Shown here: positions 3,052-64,000 of the stretch, in pieces | Position numbering within the stretch: position 1 is the first letter of the stretch | Layout of the letters: every line of letters begins with the position of its first letter | DNA from: a virus | Strand: one strand, 5' to 3' | Virus record (IMG/VR): IMGVR_UViG_3300022752_004829 | Location: 19,359 to 83,358 of that record | Length of the DNA stretch: 64,000 nucleotides | Notes under the pieces: generated by a model | Databases searched by the model: none | What the model was told of the DNA's origin: nothing | What the model saw: only the letters and a program-made list of their open reading frames with translations | Position numbers and translations under genes: made by a program

Positions 3052-5313
3052 TTATAATTTACACGCTCCAGAAGAGCAATCTCGATCTTCTTTTTGATTC
3101 ATTAGTTGTTCTTTATCTCCATCGTCTGTATTATTATAATAAAGACTAATTAACCCTAAAGAATAAGCATACATAATTTCCTTCATTACTTTTGCATCTG
3201 GAAGAACATTATTTTCATAATGAGAATAGTTATAGTATACATTAGTTGATATTGCCATGTCAATATATTTTTGAATAACTGCATTTACTTTTAATAAGCC
3301 AGAGTTATCTTTGAAATTATAAGCTAATTCGTAATTATCATCATATTTTCCAACTCCAGGAACTAATACTGGTAACTTACCCATTTTACTCATTTTATAA
3401 GTAATTAAACTACGAATTGGCTCTACTCCATTGGTTGAAGATTGAATTACTGAACTACTTTCGCATGGCATACAAGATGATAAAGTTGAATGCCTTAAAC
3501 CAAATTCCTTAATATCTTTCCTTAGCTTCTCCCAGTCAAGAGATAGTTTCCTTTTACAAAATTCATCTACTTTATCTTTATAAGTATCAATAGGAAGAAT
3601 TCCTTTAGAGTATTTTGTTCTATCAAATTTTTCACACTTGCCTTTTTCTTTAGCAAGTTCTAAACTTGATTTTAAAAGATAGTATTGAAAATGTTCCATC
3701 CATTCATCAAGAACTGGAAGAGCCTTATCGGATGTATATTTTAATTCATTTTTAGCAAGATAGGCTGCTAAATTAGTTATACCTACCCCAAGACTACGAC
3801 GTTTTTTTGCAAAATTTTCAGCAGCAGTATTAAAATAATCTTGAATCTCAATAATTTCATCAAGAAATCTTACAATAAGATCGCAAGTCTTTTCAAGATC
3901 CTGCCAGTTTTTAATTTCTAGCATATTTACTGCGGAAAGAATACACATACCAATTTCACCATTTTTATCATGATAATCATTTAATGGTATTGTGGGATGA
4001 ATAACTTCTGTGCAAAGATTACTCATTGTAACTTTATCTAACCAAGCTCCATGATTATTAGCGTGATCTACATTTAGAATATAAATTCTACCAGTTTCAA
4101 CTCTTTCTTTTATAATTAAAGAAAATAGTTTACGAGCAGATACTTTTTTCTTTATCTTTAGCTTCTTCGTTTCGCATTCTTTATAGACTTTATCGAAATC
4201 TTTTGTTCCCCAAGCTTCATATAATTCTGGAACTTCTGAAGTATTGAATAGAGTAATCTCTTCATCTTTTAAAACTCTATCATAGAATAGTTTACTCATG
4301 CCAACAGTATAATCTAATTTACGGACACGATTATCATCTGTTCCTGCGTTATTTTTTAATACTACAATATCTTCAATTTCGTAGTGCCACCATTGAATAT
4401 TGCAAGTAGCACTTCCGCCACGAAGACCATTTTGTTGCCATGCCTTTACGCTACTCTCATAAATTTTAAGAAATGGAATCAATCCAGTATGAACTACTTC
4501 TCCATTTTTTATAGGAGATCCAATAGCTCTTATCTTTGATACGTCTATACCTATTCCGCACCTACTAGCTGTAGCCATACTTACGGCAGTTGCACTTGCA
4601 GTAATACTTTCTCTACTATCATCAACTCCAATCAAACAGCAACTAGCATAATTTTTACTGGGGGTTCTTACTCCAGCCATTACTGGTGTTGGGAGATTGA
4701 TTTTATGTTTGCTAATAGCATCATAAAATTTACGAACATAATTTAATCTTGTCTCTTGTGGATAGTTTATGAAAGCATAAGCTGCAATTAAAACGTAAGC
4801 GAATTGAGGAGTTTCATAAATTTTTCCTGTTACGCGATCTTTAATAAGATACTTATCGCATAATTGTTTTATTCCAGCGTATGTAAAATTATAATCTCTT
4901 TCATGATCAATAAATTCACCCATCTTATTCATTTCGTCTTCAGAGTATTTTTCTAAAATTATAGAATCATAAATTTTATTTTTTAAACCTTGATTTATAA
5001 ATTCTAATAAACGAGGAGCATGCTTACCTTTCCAAACATCTTTTCTTAGCTGATAATTCAGTAATCTTCCTGCGACATATTGATAATTTGGTTTTTCTAC
5101 AGAAATTAAATTCGCTGAAGACTCAATTAATAATTTATGTATTTCTTTTGTACTAACACCATCTGTCATATTTATCTTCGCATTGATTTCAATATCAGTC
5201 AAACTTACGTTACTCAAATCTTTCGTTGCCCAACTAATAACTCTATGAATTTTTTCTATATTAAATTTTTCAGTTGATCCATTTCTTTTTCTTACGTTTA
5301 TATTCTTACTCAT
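3052..5313 (-). CDS. nrdA: Ribonucleotide reductase class Ia, alpha subunit
   Basis: This is the catalytic subunit, reducing ribonucleoside diphosphates to deoxyribonucleotides. It has 753 residues. Residues 1-95 form an ATP-cone (RKRNGSTEKFNIEKI), so dATP feedback control is expected. The active-site set matches E. coli: C225 in the SCCLIG segment, N432-x-C434-x-E436 (NLCTE) and C457 (GMCIL). The radical-transfer tyrosine pair lies near the end (LYYNNT). The C-terminal DCSSGACKL supplies the cysteine pair that re-reduces the active site. A leader of almost 400 bases containing a structured RNA candidate precedes it, driven by a consensus promoter at 5716-5744. Confidence 0.97.
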   Translation of the reverse strand: MSKNINVRKRNGSTEKFNIEKIHRVISWATKDLSNVSLTDIEINAKINMTDGVSTKEIHKLLIESSANLISVEKPNYQYVAGRLLNYQLRKDVWKGKHAPRLLEFINQGLKNKIYDSIILEKYSEDEMNKMGEFIDHERDYNFTYAGIKQLCDKYLIKDRVTGKIYETPQFAYVLIAAYAFINYPQETRLNYVRKFYDAISKHKINLPTPVMAGVRTPSKNYASCCLIGVDDSRESITASATAVSMATASRCGIGIDVSKIRAIGSPIKNGEVVHTGLIPFLKIYESSVKAWQQNGLRGGSATCNIQWWHYEIEDIVVLKNNAGTDDNRVRKLDYTVGMSKLFYDRVLKDEEITLFNTSEVPELYEAWGTKDFDKVYKECETKKLKIKKKVSARKLFSLIIKERVETGRIYILNVDHANNHGAWLDKVTMSNLCTEVIHPTIPLNDYHDKNGEIGMCILSAVNMLEIKNWQDLEKTCDLIVRFLDEIIEIQDYFNTAAENFAKKRRSLGVGITNLAAYLAKNELKYTSDKALPVLDEWMEHFQYYLLKSSLELAKEKGKCEKFDRTKYSKGILPIDTYKDKVDEFCKRKLSLDWEKLRKDIKEFGLRHSTLSSCMPCESSSVIQSSTNGVEPIRSLITYKMSKMGKLPVLVPGVGKYDDNYELAYNFKDNSGLLKVNAVIQKYIDMAISTNVYYNYSHYENNVLPDAKVMKEIMYAYSLGLISLYYNNTDDGDKEQLMNQKEDRDCSSGACKL

Positions 5314-13570: not shown

Positions 13571-14899
13571 ATGAGATATTGCTTAGATTTAGATAATACA
13601 ATTTGTATAACCGAGAAGAGTGATTATAATAACTCGAAATTAATAGAAAAAGCTAAGACCTTAATTAATAAACTATACGATAATGGAAATTATATTATTA
13701 TAAATACAGCAAGAGGTGCGTCTTCTGGTATAGATTGGACGGATTTTACTAAGAAACAATTAATAGATTGGGGAATTAAATATCATGAGCTTATTATGAA
13801 TGCAAAGCCTAATGCAGATATATTCGTTGATGATAAAAATATTTCTATAGAAGAATGGTATAATTCCGATAAATCTCCAAAAGGATTTATAGCTGGCACA
13901 TTCGATCTTATACATAATGGATACATTAAACTTTTTGAATTTGCAAAACAACATTGTAATAAACTAATTGTAGCAATTCATGAAGATCCATCTTTAGAAA
14001 AGAAAGAGAAAAGCAAGCCTATTCATAGTATAGAAGAAAGAATTGAGATTTTAAAGTCAATTAAGTATATAGACGATATCTTAATATATCAAACAGAAGA
14101 AGATTTATACGAATTAATAAAATTAATGAAACCTAGCATAAGATTTTTGGATGAAACATATAAAAATAAGAAAATAACTGGAGAAAATCTATGCCCAATT
14201 ATGTTTCATGAGAGAAAACATAATTATTCTTATACAAATTTAAAAAATAAAATTTTTGGTGATGAAGCTTTATCAAATAAAATTAATCAAATTATTTTAG
14301 ACTTAGTAGAAAAAGATAATGCTAATATTGATCTTCCGAATCCATTACCTAATGAAATTTTAATAAATTCTTTTATAGATACGGCAATTTCTAATATTAC
14401 CATTAAAAATGGTTTAGTATTAGAATTTGGAGTTTATCAAGGAAGAACGATAAACTATATTGCTTCAAAATTCCCAGATAATATAATATATGGATTTGAT
14501 TCATTCGAAGGTCTTCCAGAGCAATGGAATGATAAGAATCCAAAAGGAATATATACATTGGATGGTAACTTGCCTAAAGTCGAAAAAAACGTTAAATTAA
14601 TTAAAGGATGGTTTAACGAAACTTTACCTACTTTTGTAGCGGAGCATAAAGACCCAATTTCCCTACTGCACGTAGATTGTGATATTTATTCTTCTACAGT
14701 ATGCGTTTTAGAATCATTAAAAGATCAAATTATTGATGGAACAGTAGTTATATTCGATGAAATTTGGAAATATCCAAATTATAAAGAACACGAGATAAAG
14801 GCTTTTGCAGAATTTCTTTTGAAATATGATTTTAAATATGAATGCATCAGAACACTTAAATCAAGATACGCAAAAGCTATATTTATATTAAAAAAATGA
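13571..14899 (+). CDS. HAD phosphatase + nucleotidyltransferase + TylF-like methyltransferase fusion
   Basis: The protein has 442 residues with three modules. Residues 1-100: HAD-like phosphatase with DLDNT (nucleophile D6, acid D8), NTARG and a VDDK acidic pair. Residues 106-225: cytidylyltransferase-like nucleotidyltransferase with GTFDLIHNGY, where the second His of HxGH is Tyr, and SIEERIEIL. Residues 235-442: a TylF/MacP-type methyltransferase with LEFGVYQGRTI, GFDSFEGLP, HVDCDIYSST and IFDEIWKYP. The first two modules could do the bisphosphate dephosphorylation (GmhB step) and nucleotide activation (HddC step) of the heptose pathway; the third would methylate the sugar. This role is inferred from gene order. 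Confidence 0.72.
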   Translation: MRYCLDLDNTICITEKSDYNNSKLIEKAKTLINKLYDNGNYIIINTARGASSGIDWTDFTKKQLIDWGIKYHELIMNAKPNADIFVDDKNISIEEWYNSDKSPKGFIAGTFDLIHNGYIKLFEFAKQHCNKLIVAIHEDPSLEKKEKSKPIHSIEERIEILKSIKYIDDILIYQTEEDLYELIKLMKPSIRFLDETYKNKKITGENLCPIMFHERKHNYSYTNLKNKIFGDEALSNKINQIILDLVEKDNANIDLPNPLPNEILINSFIDTAISNITIKNGLVLEFGVYQGRTINYIASKFPDNIIYGFDSFEGLPEQWNDKNPKGIYTLDGNLPKVEKNVKLIKGWFNETLPTFVAEHKDPISLLHVDCDIYSSTVCVLESLKDQIIDGTVVIFDEIWKYPNYKEHEIKAFAEFLLKYDFKYECIRTLKSRYAKAIFILKK

Positions 14900-20454: not shown

Positions 20455-20779
20455 ACTTTGTCAATTCATAGTTAAAAAATATATAAAAGTAAATATAAAT
20501 TGGCCAAGAGAAATTAAAATAGCTCAAAGATTAATTAAAAGATTTAAAGAGTTCGAATTTTGGGACAATCTTCAAGAACTTAAAAGCCCACCTCCATCTC
20601 TAGCTTGGTTTCTTAAACCAGAAGGTAAAGCTTTTTTATTAGCTGAATATGAAAAATTTAAATTAAATTTAAATCAAAAAGAAATAAAAATAGAAAAATA
20701 TAAAATAAATGAAGATAAAAAGATTTGCCAAAAGCCTAAAACTCTGTTAGAATTTATAAGATATGGGAAGAAAACCTAA
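20429..20779 (+). CDS. Hypothetical protein before the RecA-like gene
   Basis: I do not recognise this 116-residue protein. It starts with GTG, 26 bases inside the preceding gene, and overlaps the next by 17 bases. The sequence is basic and helical, with a conserved-looking core NWPREIKIAQRLIKRF around residue 24 and a SLAWFLKPEGKAFL segment near residue 57. The tail is lysine-rich. Its place between sugar genes and recombination genes, and the promoter for the next gene lying inside it (20725-20753), suggest that it belongs to the end of the sugar transcript or bridges both units. Confidence 0.55.
   Translation: MILKNINHKLCQFIVKKYIKVNINWPREIKIAQRLIKRFKEFEFWDNLQELKSPPPSLAWFLKPEGKAFLLAEYEKFKLNLNQKEIKIEKYKINEDKKICQKPKTLLEFIRYGKKT
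20725..20753 (+). promoter_or_regulatory. Sigma70-type promoter for the RecA-like gene
   Basis: TTGCCA (20725-20730), a 17-base spacer and TAGAAT (20748-20753) lie nine bases before the ATG at 20763, inside the preceding reading frame. The position predicts a leaderless or near-leaderless transcript that starts the replication module. Confidence 0.55.
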
Positions 20780-21905
20780 AGAAGAAGTAGTTCAATCTAT
20801 CGGTCCATCAGCATCGGATAGATTATTATCATTTTTAAAGGATAATAAAGAAGATCATTATAACTTTGAAGAAGAAATTTATTATAAAGTATCTACTGGT
20901 AGTCTTAATCTGGATATAGCTACAAGCGGTGGTCTATCTCCTGGTCTTCATAGATTTATAGGCATGAATGAAGGTGGTAAAACTTCAGAGGCGCTAGAAG
21001 TTGCTAAAAATTTTCTCAAAACAGTAGAGAATTCAAGAGCTTTACTTTTTAAAGCAGAAGGTCGCCTAAGTAAAGAGATCAAGGAAAGATCAGGAATTAA
21101 ATTCGTTACAGATCCTAAAGAATGGGTAGATGGAACATGTTTCGTATTTGAATGTAATATTTTTGAAACAGTATCTGAATTAATGAAAGACTTAGTTCAA
21201 TCAAATGACGAAAACAAAAGATATATGTTCATACTTGATTCTGTTGATGGCCTTATTACAAAAGGTGATAAAGATAAAACTTTAAGTGAAGCAACTAAAG
21301 TTGCAGGAGGAGCAGTTATATCTTCTATGCTTATGAAGAAAATTTCATTAGCACTATCAAAGCGCGGTCATATGGCAATTTTTATCAGTCAAGTTCGTTC
21401 TGATATTAAACTTGATCCTTACGCAGCAAATAAAGAAGTAAGACAAACTACAGCGACTGGCGGAAATGCATTATTACATTTTGCAAATTGGATTCTTGAA
21501 TTCGAACCTCGTTACAATAAAGATCTTATTCTTGAGAAACCAAATGAAAAATATGATCCAGTGAAAAATAAAATTATTGGACATAATGTAAAAATTGCAA
21601 TTAAAAAATCTACAAATGAATCAACAAACTCCAAGATTCAATATCCAATCAAATACGGAAGAAAAGAAGGTTCTTCTGTATGGAAAGAATACGAAGTAAT
21701 TGATCAAATTCTTGCTTGGGAATTTGCAACAGCTAAAGGGGCATGGGTTACTTTCTCTGATGAAATTATAGAAGAACTCAAAAAATCAAATATTGAACTT
21801 AAAAAACAACATCAAGGCGTAGATAATCTTCGACTTTATCTTGAAGAAAATAAATTAATAGTTGATTATTTTTATAATAAGTTTATTCAAACATTAGCGT
21901 CATGA
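20763..21905 (+). CDS. RecA/UvsX-like recombinase
   Basis: This is a strand-exchange ATPase for recombination and repair. It has 380 residues. SLNLDIATSGGLSPGLHRFIG precedes Walker A G67-x4-G72-K73-T74 (GMNEGGKT), followed by AEGRLSKE (with the catalytic glutamate region), Walker B YMFILDSVDGL near 155, FISQVRSD near 205 and TATGGNAL near 232, which match loop L1/L2 and DNA-binding positions of RecA/UvsX. The length and spacing are nearer to T4 UvsX than to bacterial RecA. Its own promoter ends nine bases before the ATG. Confidence 0.88.
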   Translation: MGRKPKEEVVQSIGPSASDRLLSFLKDNKEDHYNFEEEIYYKVSTGSLNLDIATSGGLSPGLHRFIGMNEGGKTSEALEVAKNFLKTVENSRALLFKAEGRLSKEIKERSGIKFVTDPKEWVDGTCFVFECNIFETVSELMKDLVQSNDENKRYMFILDSVDGLITKGDKDKTLSEATKVAGGAVISSMLMKKISLALSKRGHMAIFISQVRSDIKLDPYAANKEVRQTTATGGNALLHFANWILEFEPRYNKDLILEKPNEKYDPVKNKIIGHNVKIAIKKSTNESTNSKIQYPIKYGRKEGSSVWKEYEVIDQILAWEFATAKGAWVTFSDEIIEELKKSNIELKKQHQGVDNLRLYLEENKLIVDYFYNKFIQTLAS

Positions 21906-31417: not shown

Positions 31418-31966
31418 ATGATTTCATTTTATAAACCAAATAGTAAAAATACTGGAACTGCTTGCAGTTTCACGGTAAATGCAAAGGATGCCTCAATATG
31501 GGGATCTTTAATAAAACAATCTTCATGGAACGAAGTAAAAAAGATAGGTTCATTTTCAGAAAATCAAAATAATCCAAATAAAAGCGTAAAAATTAAATTT
31601 TCTTTAACAGAAGCCGCTGGTATATTAGACGCAATAGAGAGGAATGTCGAATTTTCGGCATACCACACTTCAGAAAAACAAACAACTAGAATAAAATTCT
31701 GTCCTTATATTAAAGAAGAAAAGCAAGTGGGATATTCATACTCTGTAAATAAAGAGGATAAGCAAAATAGCGAAAATAAACAATCTTATTTAATTGGATT
31801 TTATTTTAATGAGGCTACTCTTATAAGAGAATTTTTAAAATTTGCATTGAATAATATATTTCATCAACAAGAAATAGAAAATATTAAAAAATTAAAAAAT
31901 AGAAAGATTGAAGCTAAACCTCCAACCGAATCTAATCAAGAAGATGGAGATGGCGAAATTTGGTGA
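31418..31966 (+). CDS. Putative single-stranded DNA-binding protein
   Basis: The protein has 182 residues. Residues 1-130 alternate strands with aromatic and basic residues (SFYKPNSKNTGTACSFTVN, IKFSLTEAAGILDAIERN, YSYSVNKED, YLIGFYFNEATLIREFLKFAL), a layout like the PC4/whirly type of ssDNA-binding fold. The tail (NQEDGDGEIW) is acidic and ends with a hydrophobic residue, as in SSB proteins that recruit partners. It has its own strong promoter and follows the replicase genes. The fold call is by pattern only, and the next gene starts seven bases before its end. Confidence 0.45.
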   Translation: MISFYKPNSKNTGTACSFTVNAKDASIWGSLIKQSSWNEVKKIGSFSENQNNPNKSVKIKFSLTEAAGILDAIERNVEFSAYHTSEKQTTRIKFCPYIKEEKQVGYSYSVNKEDKQNSENKQSYLIGFYFNEATLIREFLKFALNNIFHQQEIENIKKLKNRKIEAKPPTESNQEDGDGEIW

Positions 31967-33879
31967 AAAAGAAAAAAGTTTTAATACAAACAGATTTTGC
32001 CTTAGCGAAAACAGGCTTCGGTAGAAATGCGAAAGCATTATTAAAATATCTATATAATTTAAATAAATATGATATCACACATTACTGCTGTGGTATGCCA
32101 TGGAGTCATCCAGAATTAAAAAGAACTCCATGGAAATCCTTTGGGTCACTACCAGACACACAACAAGAATTGGAATTATTAAATAGAGATCCTAATCTAG
32201 CTAGAATGGCTAGTTATGGCGCGCACTTTTTAGATAGAATAATTGAACAAGAAAAGCCAGATATATACATTGCGATCCAAGATATTTGGGGGGTTGATTT
32301 TGCAATAGATAAACCTTGGTTTAATAAAATAAACTCAGTTATTTGGACTACGTTAGATTCTTTGCCTATATTAGATTCTGCGATATCATGCGCTCCTAAA
32401 GTTAAAAATTATTGGATATGGAGTAATTTCGCAACTAAAGCTCTAAATAATATGGGATTTGGTCATGTCAAAACTGTTCATGGATGTCTAGAAACTAAAG
32501 ATTTTTATAAACTATCAGATTTTGATAGAAAAAAGCTAAGAAATAAATATAACTTGCCTCAAGATGCATTCATAATTGGGTATGTATTTAGAAATCAATT
32601 AAGGAAAAGCGTTCCTAATTTATTAGAGGGATACGCTTTATGGAAAAAGGAAAATCCAAATATAAAAAATACTTTTTTACTTTTGCATACTCACTGGGGA
32701 GAAGGCTGGAATATTCCAAAGCTTTGTAGTGAACTTGGAGTAAATATTCAAGAAGTTTTAACAACTTACGTATGTAGAAATTGTGGCGAATATGAAATTA
32801 AGAATTTTGCTGGACAGGATCTAAATTGTAAATACTGCGGAGCAGAAAAGAGTCAAACAACCACAAACGTTAGCATCGGAGTATCAGAAGAACAACTTAA
32901 TGAAGTATATAACCTTATGGATGTTTATTGCCATCCATTTACTAGTGGTGGTCAAGAAATTCCTATTCAAGAAGCTAAATTAACAGAACTCATTACTTTA
33001 GTTACAAATTATTCTTGTGGCGAAGAAATGTGTGAAAAAGACGCGTATTCTATTCCATTAGAATGGTCAGAATATAGAGAGCATGGAACAGAATTTAGAA
33101 AAGCTTCAACCTGTCCAAAATCTATAGCAAAAAACTTAAATAAAGTATATAAGATGTCTAAAACGGAAAAGATTGAAATGGGTAAGAATGCTAGAGATTG
33201 GACTATAAAAAATTTCTCAGTAGAATCTGTAGGATCATTTATATCAAATTTCATCGATAATTGTGAATATGTAGATCTTGATTTATCTCAAAGTCATATC
33301 GAAAGAAATCCTAATGTAGTAATTCCAGATATAAAAGATAATAAAGAATGGATATTATACTTATATCATAATGTTTTATGTCTTAAGAATATAAATGAAA
33401 AAGACTCTGGATTTATATACTGGATGGATCAAATTTCCAAAGGAATGCCTAGGAATGAAATAGAAACTTACTTTAGGAAAGTCGCCTCAGAAGATTTAAA
33501 TAAAAATAAACAAATCCCATTCGAAGAAATCTTAGATAAAGATGATAATGGTAAAAGAATCTTAGTTGTTATGCCAGAAAGCGCTGGAGATGTTTTCATG
33601 ATCACTAGCCTATTGCCATCCATAAAAAATATATATCCAGAATATAATATATACTTTGCTACAAAACCAGAATATTTTTCAATTTTAAATGGAAATAAAT
33701 ATATTCATAAAACTATACCATACATTCCTCAAATGGACAATTTAATGTGGTTAGAAGGAGCTGGCGACCATAAAGGTTTTTTTGAAATAGCATTCCTACC
33801 TCACATAGGAACACAGAGAATTTTAAATTATTTGCATAATGGCAAAGATAAAATAGAATTTAAAATTAAAAATTTTTAA
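31960..33879 (+). CDS. GT4 glycosyltransferase with zinc-ribbon insertion and start of a GT9 domain
   Basis: The protein has 639 residues from a GTG start. Residues 5-430 are GT-B family 4: GFGRNAKALLKYL, VFRNQLRKSVPNLLEGY, then a zinc ribbon (CRNC and CKYC, near 273-295) inserted before YCHPFTSGGQEIPIQEA (donor-site glutamates). From about 540 a second domain begins (KRILVVMPESAGDVFMITSLLPSI), the N-half of a GT9/heptosyltransferase-type fold, and the frame stops within it. The next gene carries the missing half in the same frame. The stop at 33877-33879 is TAA. It may act on the glycan built by the upstream operon. Confidence 0.75.
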   Translation: MVKKKKVLIQTDFALAKTGFGRNAKALLKYLYNLNKYDITHYCCGMPWSHPELKRTPWKSFGSLPDTQQELELLNRDPNLARMASYGAHFLDRIIEQEKPDIYIAIQDIWGVDFAIDKPWFNKINSVIWTTLDSLPILDSAISCAPKVKNYWIWSNFATKALNNMGFGHVKTVHGCLETKDFYKLSDFDRKKLRNKYNLPQDAFIIGYVFRNQLRKSVPNLLEGYALWKKENPNIKNTFLLLHTHWGEGWNIPKLCSELGVNIQEVLTTYVCRNCGEYEIKNFAGQDLNCKYCGAEKSQTTTNVSIGVSEEQLNEVYNLMDVYCHPFTSGGQEIPIQEAKLTELITLVTNYSCGEEMCEKDAYSIPLEWSEYREHGTEFRKASTCPKSIAKNLNKVYKMSKTEKIEMGKNARDWTIKNFSVESVGSFISNFIDNCEYVDLDLSQSHIERNPNVVIPDIKDNKEWILYLYHNVLCLKNINEKDSGFIYWMDQISKGMPRNEIETYFRKVASEDLNKNKQIPFEEILDKDDNGKRILVVMPESAGDVFMITSLLPSIKNIYPEYNIYFATKPEYFSILNGNKYIHKTIPYIPQMDNLMWLEGAGDHKGFFEIAFLPHIGTQRILNYLHNGKDKIEFKIKNF

Positions 33880-33888
33880 TATAAATAT

Positions 33889-35067
33889 ATGCATATATTA
33901 GAACAATACGCATTAAATTGTGGGGTATCTATATCCAAGCCATTTATAAATGAAGAATTTTTTCCATTACCATTTGAAAAGTATATAACCCTACATCCAA
34001 AAGGAAAATTCCATTCCAGAGAATATGATTATTGGGAGGAAGTAACTACTAATCTTTATCCGATCCTAAATAAGCATAATATTAAAATTGTTCAAATTGG
34101 AAATAAAGAGGATAATCTTATCCCCTTCTGTTATTCAATAAACGGTCAGACTAACTTGAATAATTTAGCTTATATAATAAAGAATTCGCTTTTGCATCTA
34201 GGAATAGATAGCCTTCCAATTCATTTAGCTTCTGCTTATGATAAAAAAATAGTTGGATTATATTGCAACATGTATCCAAATCAATCTAAACCATATTGGT
34301 CAGATTCAAATGATTACGAGATTTTATTTGCAGATCTAAAAGATAAAAAGCCTTCATACGCAGCTATAGAAAATCCAAAAACAATAAATACCATAAAACC
34401 AGAATCTATAGTTAACGCAGTTTTAAAAAAATTAAATATAAATGAAAAAATTACTAATAAAACAATTTATAATGGTGAATCAAGTCATTTAAGATCTATT
34501 GAGATAATACCAGATCATGTTCCAAACTTGTCTTCTTTTAATATAAATATTGCTAATATAAGAATGGATTATCATTTTGACGAACAATTTTTATTTAATA
34601 TTCTTAGCGTATATCAAAGCAATATATTAACAAATAAAGCTATTAATATAAATCAACTAATTAAATTTAAGAAGAATATATTAAATATTTTCTTTATCAT
34701 AGATAGTGAATCAAATTTTGATATTAAATTTATAAAGAATTTAAAAGCAAATGGAATAAAATTCTCCATTATATCTTTTATATCAGAAGAAAAGATTGAA
34801 AAATTTAAAATTGATACAATGGATTTCTCTAACATTATAATTAAGAATTTAGAAAAAAACAAAGATACAATAAAATCATTCTATAAAGATAATCTTAAGT
34901 TTAAATCAAGTAAGCTTCTCCTAAGTCAGGGTAAAATGTACCCATCTTTTGGAAGCTTTAAATCAAATATACATTATAAAGAATCCCTCCATGAATATTT
35001 TGATTTTGATAATAAAGACGATCTTTATAAAGAATTGGAAAATTTTTATATTTTTAGCATTGACTAA
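33889..35067 (+). CDS. GT9-type C-terminal half plus unknown domain
   Basis: The protein has 392 residues. Residues 30-145 (YITLHPKGKFHSREYDYW, IVQIGNKED, NLNNLAYIIKNSLLHLGIDSLPIHLASAYDKKIVGLY) are the donor-binding second half of a GT9-like glycosyltransferase, whose first half ends the preceding gene. Residues 195-390 are a separate charged region I do not recognise. The ATG at 33889 is in frame with the upstream gene and nine bases after its TAA, without a Shine-Dalgarno sequence, so it depends on re-initiation or stop-codon readthrough. Confidence 0.65.
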   Translation: MHILEQYALNCGVSISKPFINEEFFPLPFEKYITLHPKGKFHSREYDYWEEVTTNLYPILNKHNIKIVQIGNKEDNLIPFCYSINGQTNLNNLAYIIKNSLLHLGIDSLPIHLASAYDKKIVGLYCNMYPNQSKPYWSDSNDYEILFADLKDKKPSYAAIENPKTINTIKPESIVNAVLKKLNINEKITNKTIYNGESSHLRSIEIIPDHVPNLSSFNINIANIRMDYHFDEQFLFNILSVYQSNILTNKAININQLIKFKKNILNIFFIIDSESNFDIKFIKNLKANGIKFSIISFISEEKIEKFKIDTMDFSNIIIKNLEKNKDTIKSFYKDNLKFKSSKLLLSQGKMYPSFGSFKSNIHYKESLHEYFDFDNKDDLYKELENFYIFSID

Positions 35068-59324: not shown

Positions 59325-60047
59325 CTATAAATTATACTTTAATTTTAAACTATTATAATTTTGCAAAATTTCTATATCAGATAAACCACGATTATATATA
59401 AGATATTCATATATTATTAATCCAGGATATGTTTGGATTCTAGATCCAGCTACAATGGTATTTGAGAAATCTACATTTTGTACTATAGTAGCTTGAGTTT
59501 GAGTAACTCCATTAACCAATATTTTTATACTATTATCTGCGTTTCTAGCCATTCCTAAACAAATTTTTTTTGGTAATTCAATTGTAGGAAAATTATATCC
59601 CAAGCTATTACCAAGACCATCTGGTTGAGTAATTGCCCAATATATTGTAATTTGATTTGGAGAACCACTGCTTCTAGTAAACCATACATCATATCCTGCT
59701 AATAGTGGTCCGCTTGTAGACCCAAGAATATCATAACCATTATCTAAAGGATATGATACATTTGGAAATTCTAGTACAATAAAAAATGTACATTCATTAT
59801 TTGAGCTATTAAAATTTTTATTAAATGTAATACTAGAGTCTACATCCTGCATTTCAAACCCTTTATTATTTAAAAAAGAAACTTCAGATAATGTTCCATT
59901 CAAGTTTATATTTGTTAAATCTTTAATTGTTGATCCAGAACCAGAGTAGCAATTAATATTACTACCATCAACACGTAAAACTAAATTTTGTGGAATAAAA
60001 AAATTAGAATTTTGAACGCCACAACTAACGCTTGGAAAATTTATCAT
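59325..60047 (-). CDS. LamG-like (concanavalin-fold) virion protein
   Basis: The protein has 240 residues. It shows the LamG jelly-roll order: NLVLRVDGSNINCYSGSGSTIKDLTN, then FEMQDVDSSITFNKNF, ECTFFIVLEFPN, IYWAITQPDG, KKICLGMARNADNSIKILVNGV and a YEYLIYNRGLSDIEI ending. Such domains bind sugars or receptors at tail fibres. It follows the long fibre gene (four-base overlap) and may be a fibre tip or decoration protein. It carries no catalytic residues. Confidence 0.7.
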   Translation of the reverse strand: MINFPSVSCGVQNSNFFIPQNLVLRVDGSNINCYSGSGSTIKDLTNINLNGTLSEVSFLNNKGFEMQDVDSSITFNKNFNSSNNECTFFIVLEFPNVSYPLDNGYDILGSTSGPLLAGYDVWFTRSSGSPNQITIYWAITQPDGLGNSLGYNFPTIELPKKICLGMARNADNSIKILVNGVTQTQATIVQNVDFSNTIVAGSRIQTYPGLIIYEYLIYNRGLSDIEILQNYNSLKLKYNL

Positions 60048-63000
60048 AAAGACGTATTACCATACATAATATATCCATTATTTCCAGTATGAAGAAGTGA
60101 AATTGAAGCAAATTGACCTGCTGTTTTATATTGATTGTTATAACTATTAATTGATACTCCAATTCCTAGGCCAGTAATTTGAATTTGTCCTGCACCTATT
60201 TGTATGATTGAAGCATTGAATCCTGTAGGATTTCCACTTATTAAAGTTCCAGTTATTTGAGATGAATTCGCGGCTAAAATCATTCTGCTATTATAATTAC
60301 CAGATATATTAAAATTAGAATTTACATTAATTATTTCTGGAGTCATTCCAAACACTTTTTTATCTGAGAAATAAACTCCACTAGAGAAATCTAATGTTAA
60401 TGAATTTGAACTATATGATCTATGTATTCTATCTTCTGCATCAGATATGACAATAGAGCCACTATGATTATTTAATATGCTAATTAATTTACCACCGATA
60501 GCAGTATTATAATTTCCGCTTATAGTATGATTTTCGCCATTTATAATAGAATTATAATTGCCAGATTGTATATGATTAACAATTCCATTAATAATAGAAT
60601 TATTAGAAAAATTTATTAAATTAAAAGAAGACGAAGAAGTAAGACTTCCAGTTAAAATTGGTCCGATTGCATTTCCAGAACCATTAATAATAGATGATTG
60701 ACGCCCGATCATCCTATTATTTTTTCCATTTAGAATAACGCTATGACATCCCATGGATTGATTATTTGAACCATTACCAATAAGCTGATTAATTCCGTAT
60801 CCAACAGGTTGACCAACAGTTATATCTAATCTTCCATATATTGCATTTGATGATCCTCCTAAAATAACCGATTCATTAGACAAGCCTGCGCCAGTTCCAA
60901 CTATGTTTGAATATCCACCTAAAATAATCCCATAAGGAGCATTTACTATATAATTATTTTGTCCACCAAGTATATTTGTACAACTTGAACTAGCAGTATT
61001 AGAATCTCCACCAAGTATAATAGAGCTGGATGCATTTATTGTATTATTAGATCCTCCTCCTATAAACGAATTGTAAGCATTAGAAACTATAGCGTTAGAT
61101 GCTCCTGCACCTATAAAACTTCCAAAACTACCTATATTATTATTTTGTCCGCCACCAATAAAACTCCAACATACTGGAATAGGTATTGGCCCTGGTATGA
61201 CACCATTAATATAATTACTGCTTCCACCGCCAATAAAAGAAGCTTGTCCATAATTTATATTGTTATTGCCACCGCCTACAAATGTTCTAAATCCAGCAGC
61301 AATATTTTCTCTACCACCAACAACAATTGAACTTGTTTCTAAACCTGAATTACAAATTCCTCCAGCAACTAGACTATATGGTTTGGCAGCAGTATTACAT
61401 TGACCACCAAGAACACTCGCGTATGCGTCTAAACTTCTATTACATAATCCTCCTAGAACCAAAGAACTCTGTCCTGTAGCACAATTACTATTTCCTCCAA
61501 ACACAGAAGCGTAACTCGCTGTTGATTGATTTAAAAATCCACCAACTACAGTAGATCTATAGTCAGTAGATATATTTTGTTCTCCACCAAAAATCGAAGC
61601 TCCTTCTCCAGATGCATAATTTTTATATCCTCCACCTATAAAAGATCTTAATCCTATACCTGTATTAACTTCTCCACCTACTATGATTGAGCTTAAACCA
61701 GAAGTATAATTACGTGTGCCACCTACAATTATACTATAATTTCCATCCACTGAATTATATTGACCACCTCCAATAAATGTATCATTTCCTACGCCTGAGT
61801 TACTATTTCCACCCACAATAATCGAACGATTTCCAGATATCATATTATTCGTTCCACCAGCTAAAACTATATTGTTGCCGCTATAAGAATTTTGATTTCC
61901 AAATATTTTTAATCCTGATATATATTGTATACCCGATGTATATACAATATTTTCTCCAGTCACATTAAATGATCCTCCTCCTATACCAGTTGATACTGGA
62001 TTTCCAGATATATATATCCATCCTCCACTTACGTAAACATTACCATCAATTAAATTTATATTTGCGCCAGAAAGTTGAAATTCGCTAATATTACTTAAAT
62101 CTAAATCATTGAAAATACCAGTTCCTTGAACTTCAATATTATTTATAAAACTTTTATTTCCACTAATAGTCTGATTTCCAGTTGTATAGACTATTGTAGT
62201 TGGTAATCCAGCGGCCTCTCCACTAAGTAATACTCCAGTCCCATTAACTGTTGGTCTAGAAGAGAAATCTTTAACTCCACTAACAGTCTGATTTCCTGTT
62301 GTAGAGACAAAAATATTATTATTCTTTAAATAAGATATAGTTGGTGAATTTGCATCTATTTTTTCCCAAGTTTTTCTTGCTGCTCCATATAATCTATTAG
62401 TATAAATATATGATACAGAATTTTTATAATATACTGTTTCTGATAAATCTGGATCTATAACCATTGACTCAGGAATGTTGGTGGTATCAAGCTCATAACC
62501 AGAAATTTTTATAAATTCTTGAGGCATATCATTTATTCTAGTAAAATCAATTGTAATCTGGTCTCCAACTCTTTGATTTCCACTAGATAATATTAAATTT
62601 ATATCTCCCGTGGGATTAAAGCTTATTACTCTAATAATTGCATTTCTATATCCTGTTGGTAAATAGTACATTCCGCTATTTGGTGATTGATAAGATACTG
62701 AATATTCAAAAATACTTGGTGTTGCGACGGCTTCTCCACTAAGAAGCACTCCAGTATTATTTACGGTTGGACGAGAATAAAAGTTTTTAACTCCAGAGAC
62801 ATTTTGATTTCCAGTATTATAGATTAAATTAGAGGCAATTGCATCTCCTTCTACTTTTAGATTGCCACCGCTAATATGAACTTTTTCTGTTGGAAACAAT
62901 GTTCCAATACCTACTTTACTTTCGATTTTTTCAGATATTAAAACTCCAGACGCGCCAATTCTAACGAATGGACCATCACTGAAAGCGGTAGAAAGTCCAC

Positions 63001-64000
63001 CAGTTTCCCAAATTTTTATTTCTCTTTTCCCATATAATGAATTTATTGATTCACCTAAAATACCTGTTTCAGGTCCTATAGAAATTCTAGTATTAGTAAA
63101 TGGTTGAGTTAGTAAGTTTATATCAACATCTTGCGTATTTAAAAGCGTTCTATAAAATGTAATTCCAGAATTGAAAGTTAAATTATTATTAAATGTTTTT
63201 TCATCTGATATAGTCTGATTTCCAGTTGTAAAAACAACATAATTATTTAAATTATTAATTTCAGTTTGCAGAGTATTTCCTGTCGCAATTAAATTAGTTA
63301 TTGTTGCAAATTTACTATCTGCTACCCCACTATAAGCAATAATATTTTGTACAGATGCTATATCATCTAATGGACTTAGGTCACTATTTCTTGTGCTTAT
63401 GCCAAATTTAAATTTATTGCTATGATCAAATCCTATAATTGGTCCAGGATCATTTAAACCAGTTAATCCAGATCCAGTAACAAAGAAAATTCCACCATCA
63501 TTTGCTCCACCAGTAAGATTTAAAAGAATATAAGGGCTAGATACATTAAATTGAGTTGTATTTACTATAGTTTGAGTTCCAGTAACAACTAAATTATTAA
63601 TTGTTGTATTTCCATTAAAAGTTTTATTTCCTAATATAAGTTGATCACCATAAGTAAGCACAGATACTCCGCTAAGATCATCTATTTTTTTACTTAAATC
63701 ATTCCCCGTAGAAATAAGATTCGTTGAAAGCGTATTCCCTGTCGTAATTAAATTCGTTGCAAGCGTATTGATATTCGTTTGGAGCGTAGTTCCAGTCGTA
63801 GTTAAGTTCGTTTGTAACGTAGTTCCAGTCGTAGCAAGATTCGTTGAAAGCGTATTCCCTGTCGTAATTAAATTCGTTGCAAGCGTATTGATATTCGTTT
63901 GGAGCGTAGTTCCAGTCGTAGTTAAGTTCGTTTGTAACGTAGTTCCAGTCGTAGCAAGATTCGTTGAAAGCGTATTCCCTGTCGTAATTAAATTCGTTGC
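60044..64000 (-). CDS. Tail fibre protein with YadA-head-like repeats and hendecad stalk (5' end outside window)
   Basis: The frame stays open from 63661 (a GTG codon, not the true start) to the window edge, so at least 1,318 residues are seen and the N-terminus is missing. From the edge: a threonine-rich stalk of perfect 40-residue repeats with an 11-residue sub-pattern (TLQTNLTTTGT), then strand-rich modules with repeated SGVKxFxSRPTVNxTGVLLSGEA (two copies) and TGNQTISG. A run of about 25 units follows, each with a GG-x-x-N turn (SIIVGG, SFIGGG, ASVLGGQCN), like the Hep_Hag/YadA head beta-helix. The C-terminus is a new strand-rich domain. It should be a trimer that binds host surface. Confidence 0.85.
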   Translation of the reverse strand, partial: ATNLITTGNTLSTNLATTGTTLQTNLTTTGTTLQTNINTLATNLITTGNTLSTNLATTGTTLQTNLTTTGTTLQTNINTLATNLITTGNTLSTNLISTGNDLSKKIDDLSGVSVLTYGDQLILGNKTFNGNTTINNLVVTGTQTIVNTTQFNVSSPYILLNLTGGANDGGIFFVTGSGLTGLNDPGPIIGFDHSNKFKFGISTRNSDLSPLDDIASVQNIIAYSGVADSKFATITNLIATGNTLQTEINNLNNYVVFTTGNQTISDEKTFNNNLTFNSGITFYRTLLNTQDVDINLLTQPFTNTRISIGPETGILGESINSLYGKREIKIWETGGLSTAFSDGPFVRIGASGVLISEKIESKVGIGTLFPTEKVHISGGNLKVEGDAIASNLIYNTGNQNVSGVKNFYSRPTVNNTGVLLSGEAVATPSIFEYSVSYQSPNSGMYYLPTGYRNAIIRVISFNPTGDINLILSSGNQRVGDQITIDFTRINDMPQEFIKISGYELDTTNIPESMVIDPDLSETVYYKNSVSYIYTNRLYGAARKTWEKIDANSPTISYLKNNNIFVSTTGNQTVSGVKDFSSRPTVNGTGVLLSGEAAGLPTTIVYTTGNQTISGNKSFINNIEVQGTGIFNDLDLSNISEFQLSGANINLIDGNVYVSGGWIYISGNPVSTGIGGGSFNVTGENIVYTSGIQYISGLKIFGNQNSYSGNNIVLAGGTNNMISGNRSIIVGGNSNSGVGNDTFIGGGQYNSVDGNYSIIVGGTRNYTSGLSSIIVGGEVNTGIGLRSFIGGGYKNYASGEGASIFGGEQNISTDYRSTVVGGFLNQSTASYASVFGGNSNCATGQSSLVLGGLCNRSLDAYASVLGGQCNTAAKPYSLVAGGICNSGLETSSIVVGGRENIAAGFRTFVGGGNNNINYGQASFIGGGSSNYINGVIPGPIPIPVCWSFIGGGQNNNIGSFGSFIGAGASNAIVSNAYNSFIGGGSNNTINASSSIILGGDSNTASSSCTNILGGQNNYIVNAPYGIILGGYSNIVGTGAGLSNESVILGGSSNAIYGRLDITVGQPVGYGINQLIGNGSNNQSMGCHSVILNGKNNRMIGRQSSIINGSGNAIGPILTGSLTSSSSFNLINFSNNSIINGIVNHIQSGNYNSIINGENHTISGNYNTAIGGKLISILNNHSGSIVISDAEDRIHRSYSSNSLTLDFSSGVYFSDKKVFGMTPEIINVNSNFNISGNYNSRMILAANSSQITGTLISGNPTGFNASIIQIGAGQIQITGLGIGVSINSYNNQYKTAGQFASISLLHTGNNGYIMYGNTSL
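63716..64000 (-). repeat. Perfect 120-base tandem repeat in the fibre gene
   Basis: Blocks 63721-63840 and 63841-63960 are identical base for base, and the array continues to the window edge; the left border is near 63716. Each unit codes for 40 residues made of four sub-units of 11, 11, 7 and 11 residues, with Leu every 11 positions and Thr coded nearly always by ACG. The repeat is richer in G+C than its neighbours, which suggests recent amplification. Confidence 0.9.

Follow-up and report, generated by a model that had tools for sequence, protein, structure and literature searches.

A base-identical tandem array in the stalk of a phage fibre gene and the CpG content of related arrays

Both repeat-bearing phage tail proteins and coiled-coil stalks have been described before, and several known systems come close to the fibre gene examined here. 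The trimeric autotransporter adhesins UspA1 and YadA resemble it in combining a repetitive, UspA1-like head with a coiled-coil stalk, and a head-on-rod function is likely in both cases. Unlike these adhesins, the fibre is encoded among phage structural genes, lacks a YadA-type anchor in Pfam searches, and has a stalk array that is identical base for base. The lower baseplate protein BppL of a lactococcal phage has an N-terminal domain, PF18338, that is also present in the fibre, but in this protein, which exceeds 1318 residues, it makes up no more than a short module, and the remainder is dissimilar to BppL. In the passages of the crAssphage paper that deal with BACON domains (PMC6949934), tail-associated tandem repeats that grew by duplication are described; those domains are diverged, kept in a conserved order, and reported from one lineage, whereas the fibre carries base-identical helical stalk units. 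The sections that define PARCEL (PMC2996958) describe intragenic coding repeats that encode amphipathic segments and have a DNA-level signature beyond that of the protein. In-gene tandem repetition, amphipathic coding, and a DNA signature are shared with the fibre array, but the PARCEL unit as described there is 25 residues long (75 bases), has palindromes, and is mostly unique, whereas the fibre units, of 40 or 29 residues, are identical and bear a CpG mark. Among the papers listed in the literature searches, none dealt with this array, with the CpG regularity reported below, or with base-identical, CpG-marked stalk arrays of this make-up at which assemblies break; this does not prove that no such paper exists.

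The window analyzed is a stretch of 64,000 nucleotides, positions 19359-83358 of an IMG/VR record of 83,358 bases (IMGVR_UViG_3300022752_004829), and both window and record end at window base 64000. The array at this end is probably the coding sequence for a coiled-coil stalk in a receptor-binding fibre of the virion, and recombination between its copies would have amplified it and kept them identical.

The fibre gene and its terminal array

The phage has the marks of a lambda-type siphovirus (a match to central tail fibre J, a tail protein L, and a tape-measure-like protein of 2308 residues) and also encodes a DnaB-type helicase, a Pol III alpha-type polymerase, and a ribonucleotide reductase. 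The fibre gene shares its strand with the tail genes in the window, and its frame is open at the 5' end (Table 1).

Table 1. Window positions of the fibre gene, its parts, and the candidate recombinase gene
Feature	Position	Strand	Basis
RecA-family protein, putative recombinase acting on the array	20763..21905	+	PF00154
Fibre gene lacking its 5' end, 1318 residues present	60044..64000	-	open frame to record end; BppL_N domain
UspA1-head-like segment, fragment residues 701-865	61406..61900	-	phmmer vs PDB
Conserved small domain right after the array (LSGVSVLT...LLNLTGG...), anchor A2	63290..63676	-	relatives at 56 loci
Diverged stalk edge between array and next domain, LISTGNDLSKKID region	63677..63715	-	sequence, frame
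Perfect 120-base tandem array, coiled-coil stalk	63716..64000	-	TRF 100% match; helix prediction
Array copies, 2.375 in all	63716-63835, 63836-63955, 63956-64000 (last cut by contig end)	-	

TRF reported the array as 2.4 copies with a period of 120 bases, a 100% match, no indels, and a score of 570, compared with a best score of 62 outside the array locus, and the whole array lies in a single minus-strand frame. An earlier sequence-only reading of the window had proposed at least two identical 120-base copies within a coding region and a GC content above that of the surroundings, and both points were borne out (GC 0.40, against 0.31 in the rest of the fibre gene). It had also noted a partial third copy; 45 bases of this copy are present but, because the end of the window is the end of the record, the contig breaks within the array and the copy is truncated by the contig rather than by the gene. 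The array holds 26 CG pairs in 285 bases and is the CpG-densest stretch of the record, where sliding windows have a mean of 4.15 (sd 2.44). At the diverged stalk edge, TRF gave a further row with a 33-base period (63701-63769, 83% match).

The repeat unit is not the purely 11-residue pattern that had been put forward, because its 40 residues divide as 11+11+11+7. As read from the sequence, each 11-residue block has core positions Gly3, Leu6, and Leu10 in a 3-4-4 spacing. The 40-residue unit corresponds to 11 turns at 3.636 residues per turn and the 29-residue units of relatives to 3.625, values near the approximately 3.63 residues per turn of an undistorted helix, so an almost straight rod is expected instead of the right-handed coil predicted earlier. 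AlphaFold2, run with a five-sequence alignment, returned a single helix over fragment residues 2-109, with a block-mean pLDDT of 91-98 for residues 1-100 and 76 for residues 101-110, whereas the model was unreliable for residues 112-310. UspA1 is trimeric, and the likeness of the fibre to the UspA1 head gives indirect support for a trimer, the probable assembly of the stalk helices.

That likeness was seen in phmmer, in which the UspA1-head-like segment matched PDB chain 3pr7_A (E 1.8e-11). BppL_N (PF18338) was found in the fibre fragment above the Pfam cut-off (E 2.3e-17), with BppL_N-like segments downstream of the small domain. The C-terminus of the protein is present, and a Pfam search at E 0.01 returned just BppL_N and a weak ApoLp-III match, with no C-terminal membrane anchor barrel and no BACON domain in the fragment. 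Nothing useful was obtained from a PDB search with the tip of the related fibre at locus L040. The identity of the copies argues against the array being the target of a diversity-generating retroelement.

Several other genes of the record were noted (positions outside the window carry the prefix L051). A tmRNA gene (Rfam RF00023, 111.9 bits; ARAGORN tag peptide) and a tRNA-Ser gene lie upstream of the window at L051:13011-13402. Purine metabolism genes are located at L051:11527-12519 and L051:14909-16015; the former encodes an adenylosuccinate-synthase-like protein of 330 aa that is nearer to PurA than to PurZ models, all matches being below cut-off, and the product of the latter is IMP dehydrogenase/GMP reductase-like. 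At L051:9400-10176 is a leucine-rich-repeat protein with IPNSVTSIGxxAFxxC-type repeats and a weak likeness to surface adhesin models, and at L051:6288-7181 a homologue, under the curated cut-off, of the UV damage endonuclease UvsE/UvdE. Sugar-handling genes in the window (13571-14899, 31960-33879, and 33889-35067) encode a fusion of a cytidylyltransferase and a methyltransferase, a glycosyltransferase, and a heptosyltransferase-like protein.

Related fibres and their gene neighborhood

A scan with the fibre found 26 loci, a scan of viral_contigs with the domain that follows the array found 56, and a DNA pattern found 23, 7 of which are an array of this type. Searches of the phages collection at the DNA and protein levels returned no match to the fibre, which also had, as regards a link to a host, no relative in the genome_contigs scan. 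A CG-marked array together with the conserved domain occurs in eight fibres, namely that of the window and those on contigs 3300023179_000070 (A; N-side half, _000152), 3300032282_005862 (B; N-side half, _005158), 3300046009_013981 (D), 3300023179_000392 (E), 3300011113_000738 (F, locus L149), 3300007735_000571 (G, locus L150), and 3300042691_039309 (H). A ninth, C (3300023179_000204), is represented by its N-side half only. An array of the same type follows the conserved domain at locus L144, likewise at a contig end. In about 25 related fibres the stalk repeats are diverged, the longest exact repeats being of 25 bases or less, so homogenization is not general to these stalks.

The roles of the genes in relatives were read mostly from sequence and order, capsid and portal being without a telling family match. 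The probable order before the fibre is portal, beta-roll proteins, lysis genes, protease/scaffold, and capsid; the capsid is followed by a beta-roll protein in some relatives, a small phrog_1084 protein, the fibre, and then probable connector genes. Given this place between probable capsid and connector genes, the fibre could be either a tail fibre or a head/neck fibre. The RecA-family protein in the window is a remote match, above the cut-off of PF00154 (E 5.5e-13) and with an NCBIfam RecA match (E 1.3e-15) that is nevertheless far under the cut-off of that model. A RecA-family gene was found in 5 of 13 records, including that of the window, and an ERF recombinase in none of the 13.

Codon positions and CpG content

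The strict use of ACG for Thr that had been claimed for the array was not observed: its 39 Thr codons comprise 26 ACG, 10 ACT, and 3 ACA. In the rest of the gene, 93 Thr codons comprise 6 ACG, 49 ACT, 34 ACA, and 4 ACC, and across 66 ORFs of the record 84 of 1156 Thr codons are ACG. What holds instead is a positional usage, seen in eight array pieces, with ACG mostly at block positions 1, 5, and 8 and ACT or ACA at position 2. Of the 23 distinct blocks, 19, 15, and 19 have G as third base at positions 1, 5, and 8, respectively, and all 23 encode the position-2 Thr by ACT or ACA; of the 39 codons at positions 1/5/8 in the 13 core blocks, which come from six phages, 36 are NCG. Between phages, third bases at these positions agree in all 178 NCN comparisons (124 with the same first base and 54 with a different one, as among ACG, GCG, and TCG; one Gly GGT pair was excluded and 31 non-NCN comparisons were not comparable), whereas they agree in 100 of 175 comparisons at other fourfold sites of the same blocks and in 43-89% per pair at flank fourfold sites in five phages. 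This test covered 13 of the 23 distinct blocks, array edges and near-duplicates being left out and F, G, and H not included; in H, ACT occurs at position 8 at least once. All 5 blocks with Gly at position 5 use AGC for the Ser before it, giving a CG across codons (AGC GGT), and in the blocks without Gly at position 5 the Ser at position 4 is AGT in 10, AGC in 1, and TCA in 1. F and G form a CG across codons as TAC GTT.

A search pattern with ACG at all three positions occurred at 6 viral_contigs loci, every one of them this array. The same pattern with ACA or ACT occurred at 58 and 6 viral_contigs loci, none of them a stalk array; 11 and 2 of these loci lie in an open frame, 12 of the 13 belonging to one unrelated TFSGP-type family and L114 being without a repeat. 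An overlapping sense frame was rejected as the cause of the ACG usage, the one extra sense frame that is open in the window array being open in just L040 among the seven other pieces. One stop-free antisense frame is found in each of the eight pieces and is put down to amino acid make-up. RNA structure was unsupported as a cause (folding z +1.67, -1.28, and -0.44 for three units; a fourth folded sequence lay mostly beyond the array).

To place these arrays among others, 81 distinct tandem arrays were scored across all contigs analyzed. The median ratio of CpG to that of the flank is 3.21 in the 18 near-perfect arrays (match of at least 93%) and 0.99 in the 63 others (p 2e-5); with the clade contigs removed it is 2.47 (12 arrays) against 0.97 (54 arrays; p 0.0025). 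The 93% cut-off was picked after earlier tables had been seen, and the cut-free Spearman correlation is 0.30 (p 0.007). A codon-based control, covering the 77 of 81 arrays with a long open frame, gave NCG/NCN in near-perfect arrays of 115/197 in the clade and 104/279 in others; the corresponding values are 50/892 and 210/2247 for the rest of the same ORFs and 24/129 and 111/1134 for diverged arrays. Neither the GC step nor the non-CpG GC content is changed in near-perfect arrays, and general GC-biased conversion and duplex stability were rejected on this ground. CpG-rich near-perfect arrays encoding different peptides also lie within genes at L144:4404-4530 (unit 54 bases), L183:3515-3656 and 4670-4855 (both 54), L010:9967-10074 (33), and L154:4350-4504 (84). 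Because most near-perfect arrays come from fibre-homology contigs, the regularity may hold just for this phage group, within which the mark is firm as a correlation; among arrays of at least 91% match in loci obtained by chance pattern hits, L090, L036, and L072 show no enrichment and L129 a slight one. The mark may reflect a role of the DNA itself in recombination, a repair bias that acts during conversion, or an origin from CG-rich founders, in which case it would decay once homogenization stops; none of the three is rated above unlikely.

Under the first of these, the CG-dense arrays would be a recombination or protein-binding element in their own right, and the Thr/Ser/Ala outer face of the stalk would follow from it. 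The uniform third base across phages, the restriction of enrichment to near-perfect arrays, and the CG pairs formed across codons all point this way. However, three near-perfect arrays are without enrichment (L090, L159, and, with a ratio near 1, L019 9935-10207). The spacing of CG at about 11 bases, considered as a helical phasing, holds in this clade but not in other arrays, and was rejected. CGAAT is present in 10 of 11 units (2.9 expected) and AGCGG in 7 of 11 (1.3 expected), an excess that may be explained by shared peptides (TN and SG). Thr at positions 2 and 7 remains ACT, ACA, or ACC, no cytosine (C5) methylase was found in the 13 records, all of them fragments, and all of the phages compared are related. 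We know of no binding protein for such an element, and consider it possible but unlikely. The related proposal that CpG-dense coding sequence is the signal or substrate that keeps stalk repeats recombining, so that segments bearing the mark would be amplified and homogenized and those losing it would drift and freeze, is tentative and is also judged unlikely to hold. If it were true, the Thr/Ser/Ala outer face would derive partly from the keeping of NCG codons, and the phages would hold a DNA-marked, tunable length switch within a structural gene.

Alternatively, repair during gene conversion could be biased toward CpG, with mismatches of CG against TG or CA mended to CG. Such a bias would raise CG and lower CA/TG, which is 0.66 in near-perfect arrays against 1.01 in the others, while leaving the GC step and non-CpG GC content flat, as was found. 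It would not be expected to spare the synonymously convertible NCA that persists at position 7, or the ACA at position 2, in several homogenized blocks, and CC falls as well (0.59 against 0.85, p 0.004), with a slight shift in AA. On balance, this repair bias appears quite unlikely.

Assembly, translation, and stalk length

The contig runs out inside the array in 6 of the 8 CG-marked fibres (5 of 7 without the window itself), compared with 2 of 49 other domain loci, 7 of which are flagged duplicates (Fisher p 2e-5). The two contigs of A come from one sample, and the last 127 bases of one are identical to the first 127 of the other; the perfect array on the C-side of A is 214 bases long, or 87+127, and that of G is 475, or 4x87+127, whereas the contigs of B overlap by 109 bases at 100%. 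A length of 127 is typical of assembler k-mers, and the recurring 127s look like graph loops at k = 127; a loop in a de Bruijn graph could create both the perfection and the number of copies from a true array that is shorter or less regular. A loop of this kind nevertheless requires real reads whose identical stretch is about one period plus k bases long, so that roughly two identical copies must exist if k was indeed 127. Arrays of the same type also lie inside contigs in L040 and L149, and the identical break recurs in phages of several samples. That the array owes its regularity to assembly is therefore judged very unlikely, but the concern about an artefact was justified in one respect: the contig end is an assembly break, and thus the assembled number of copies is no measurement. 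In a separate observation (ends of L055-L059; G000:1-2334 against the end of G003), the far ends of the record and of contig G003 fall at homologous positions, with 2,316 bases aligned at 77% identity, and both contigs may also break at a second shared point. A codon or tRNA effect, by which ACG would be favored for translation in a Thr-rich stretch, fits the excess of ACG in the array over the ORFs of the record but is scarcely credible, given that position-2 Thr of the same blocks is never ACG, that the positional pattern contradicts it, that Ala and Ser use GCG and TCG at the ACG positions, that other arrays put CG across codons, and that the record yielded a single tRNA gene, annotated as tRNA-Ser.

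The comparison of the sister phages A and B bears on recombination between copies. Their N-side flanks are 94.6% identical over 7.2 kb and their C-side flanks 95.1% identical over 5.8 kb (92.4% over the 1.1 kb from the array edge), whereas their arrays are 84-86% identical (short alignments of 111-122 bases) and the copies within the array of A 99-100% identical to one another, in support of the recent amplification or gene conversion proposed in the sequence-only reading. Stalk segments next to the array differ too, with 165 residues in A and 88 in B between a shared N anchor and the contig end, and 108 and 63 between the contig start and the C anchor; the shortest stalks computed via the overlaps, between the same anchors, are 232 and 115 residues. 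The sister phages thus differ in both array and stalk length, which is concerted evolution combined with length variation.

In eight homologous genes, the stretch between the frame start, near the N-terminus, and the shared anchor ranges from 347 to 1024 residues (L040, 347; L009, 471; L007, 524; L004, 591; L005, 604; L018, 679; L010, 719, open at the 3' end; L006, 1024), and outside these eight, in fibres with other N-termini, it is 430 in L016, 447 in L019, 331 in L011, and 258 in L024. F and G share 4,897 identical bases, of which 409 are array, and their arrays measure 409 and at least 475 bases; this is suggestive of copy-number change between isolates, the latter length being itself an assembly signature. 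The expected variability of stalk length therefore stands between relatives, whereas between isolates of one phage it is suggestive. Against the expectation, a fixed copy number with diverged repeats in relatives had been named as the contrary outcome, and although many relatives are diverged, their length is not fixed.

Both the stalk and its variability have good support. If the array is maintained by recombination, its 40-residue units would pack as a nearly straight rod, most likely trimeric, ahead of the small domains and the UspA1-like head. The DNA unit would be amplified and kept identical via unequal crossing over or gene conversion between copies, perhaps driven by the phage's own RecA-family protein, and the CpG richness would be tied to whatever maintains copy identity. 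Stalk length and sequence would then change fast, with the anchor and tip domains retained or exchanged in modular fashion, and selection would presumably act on the reach of the fibre to its putative receptor.

Fibre length and tip help to decide which hosts a phage reaches, and here the length appears to evolve by the copying of one stalk unit. Contigs repeatedly break at the array, so this variation stays hidden and each genome ends up in two pieces. Recently homogenized repeats could be spotted by the CpG regularity, which also raises the testable question of whether a dinucleotide mark accompanies or drives repeat recombination in phages.
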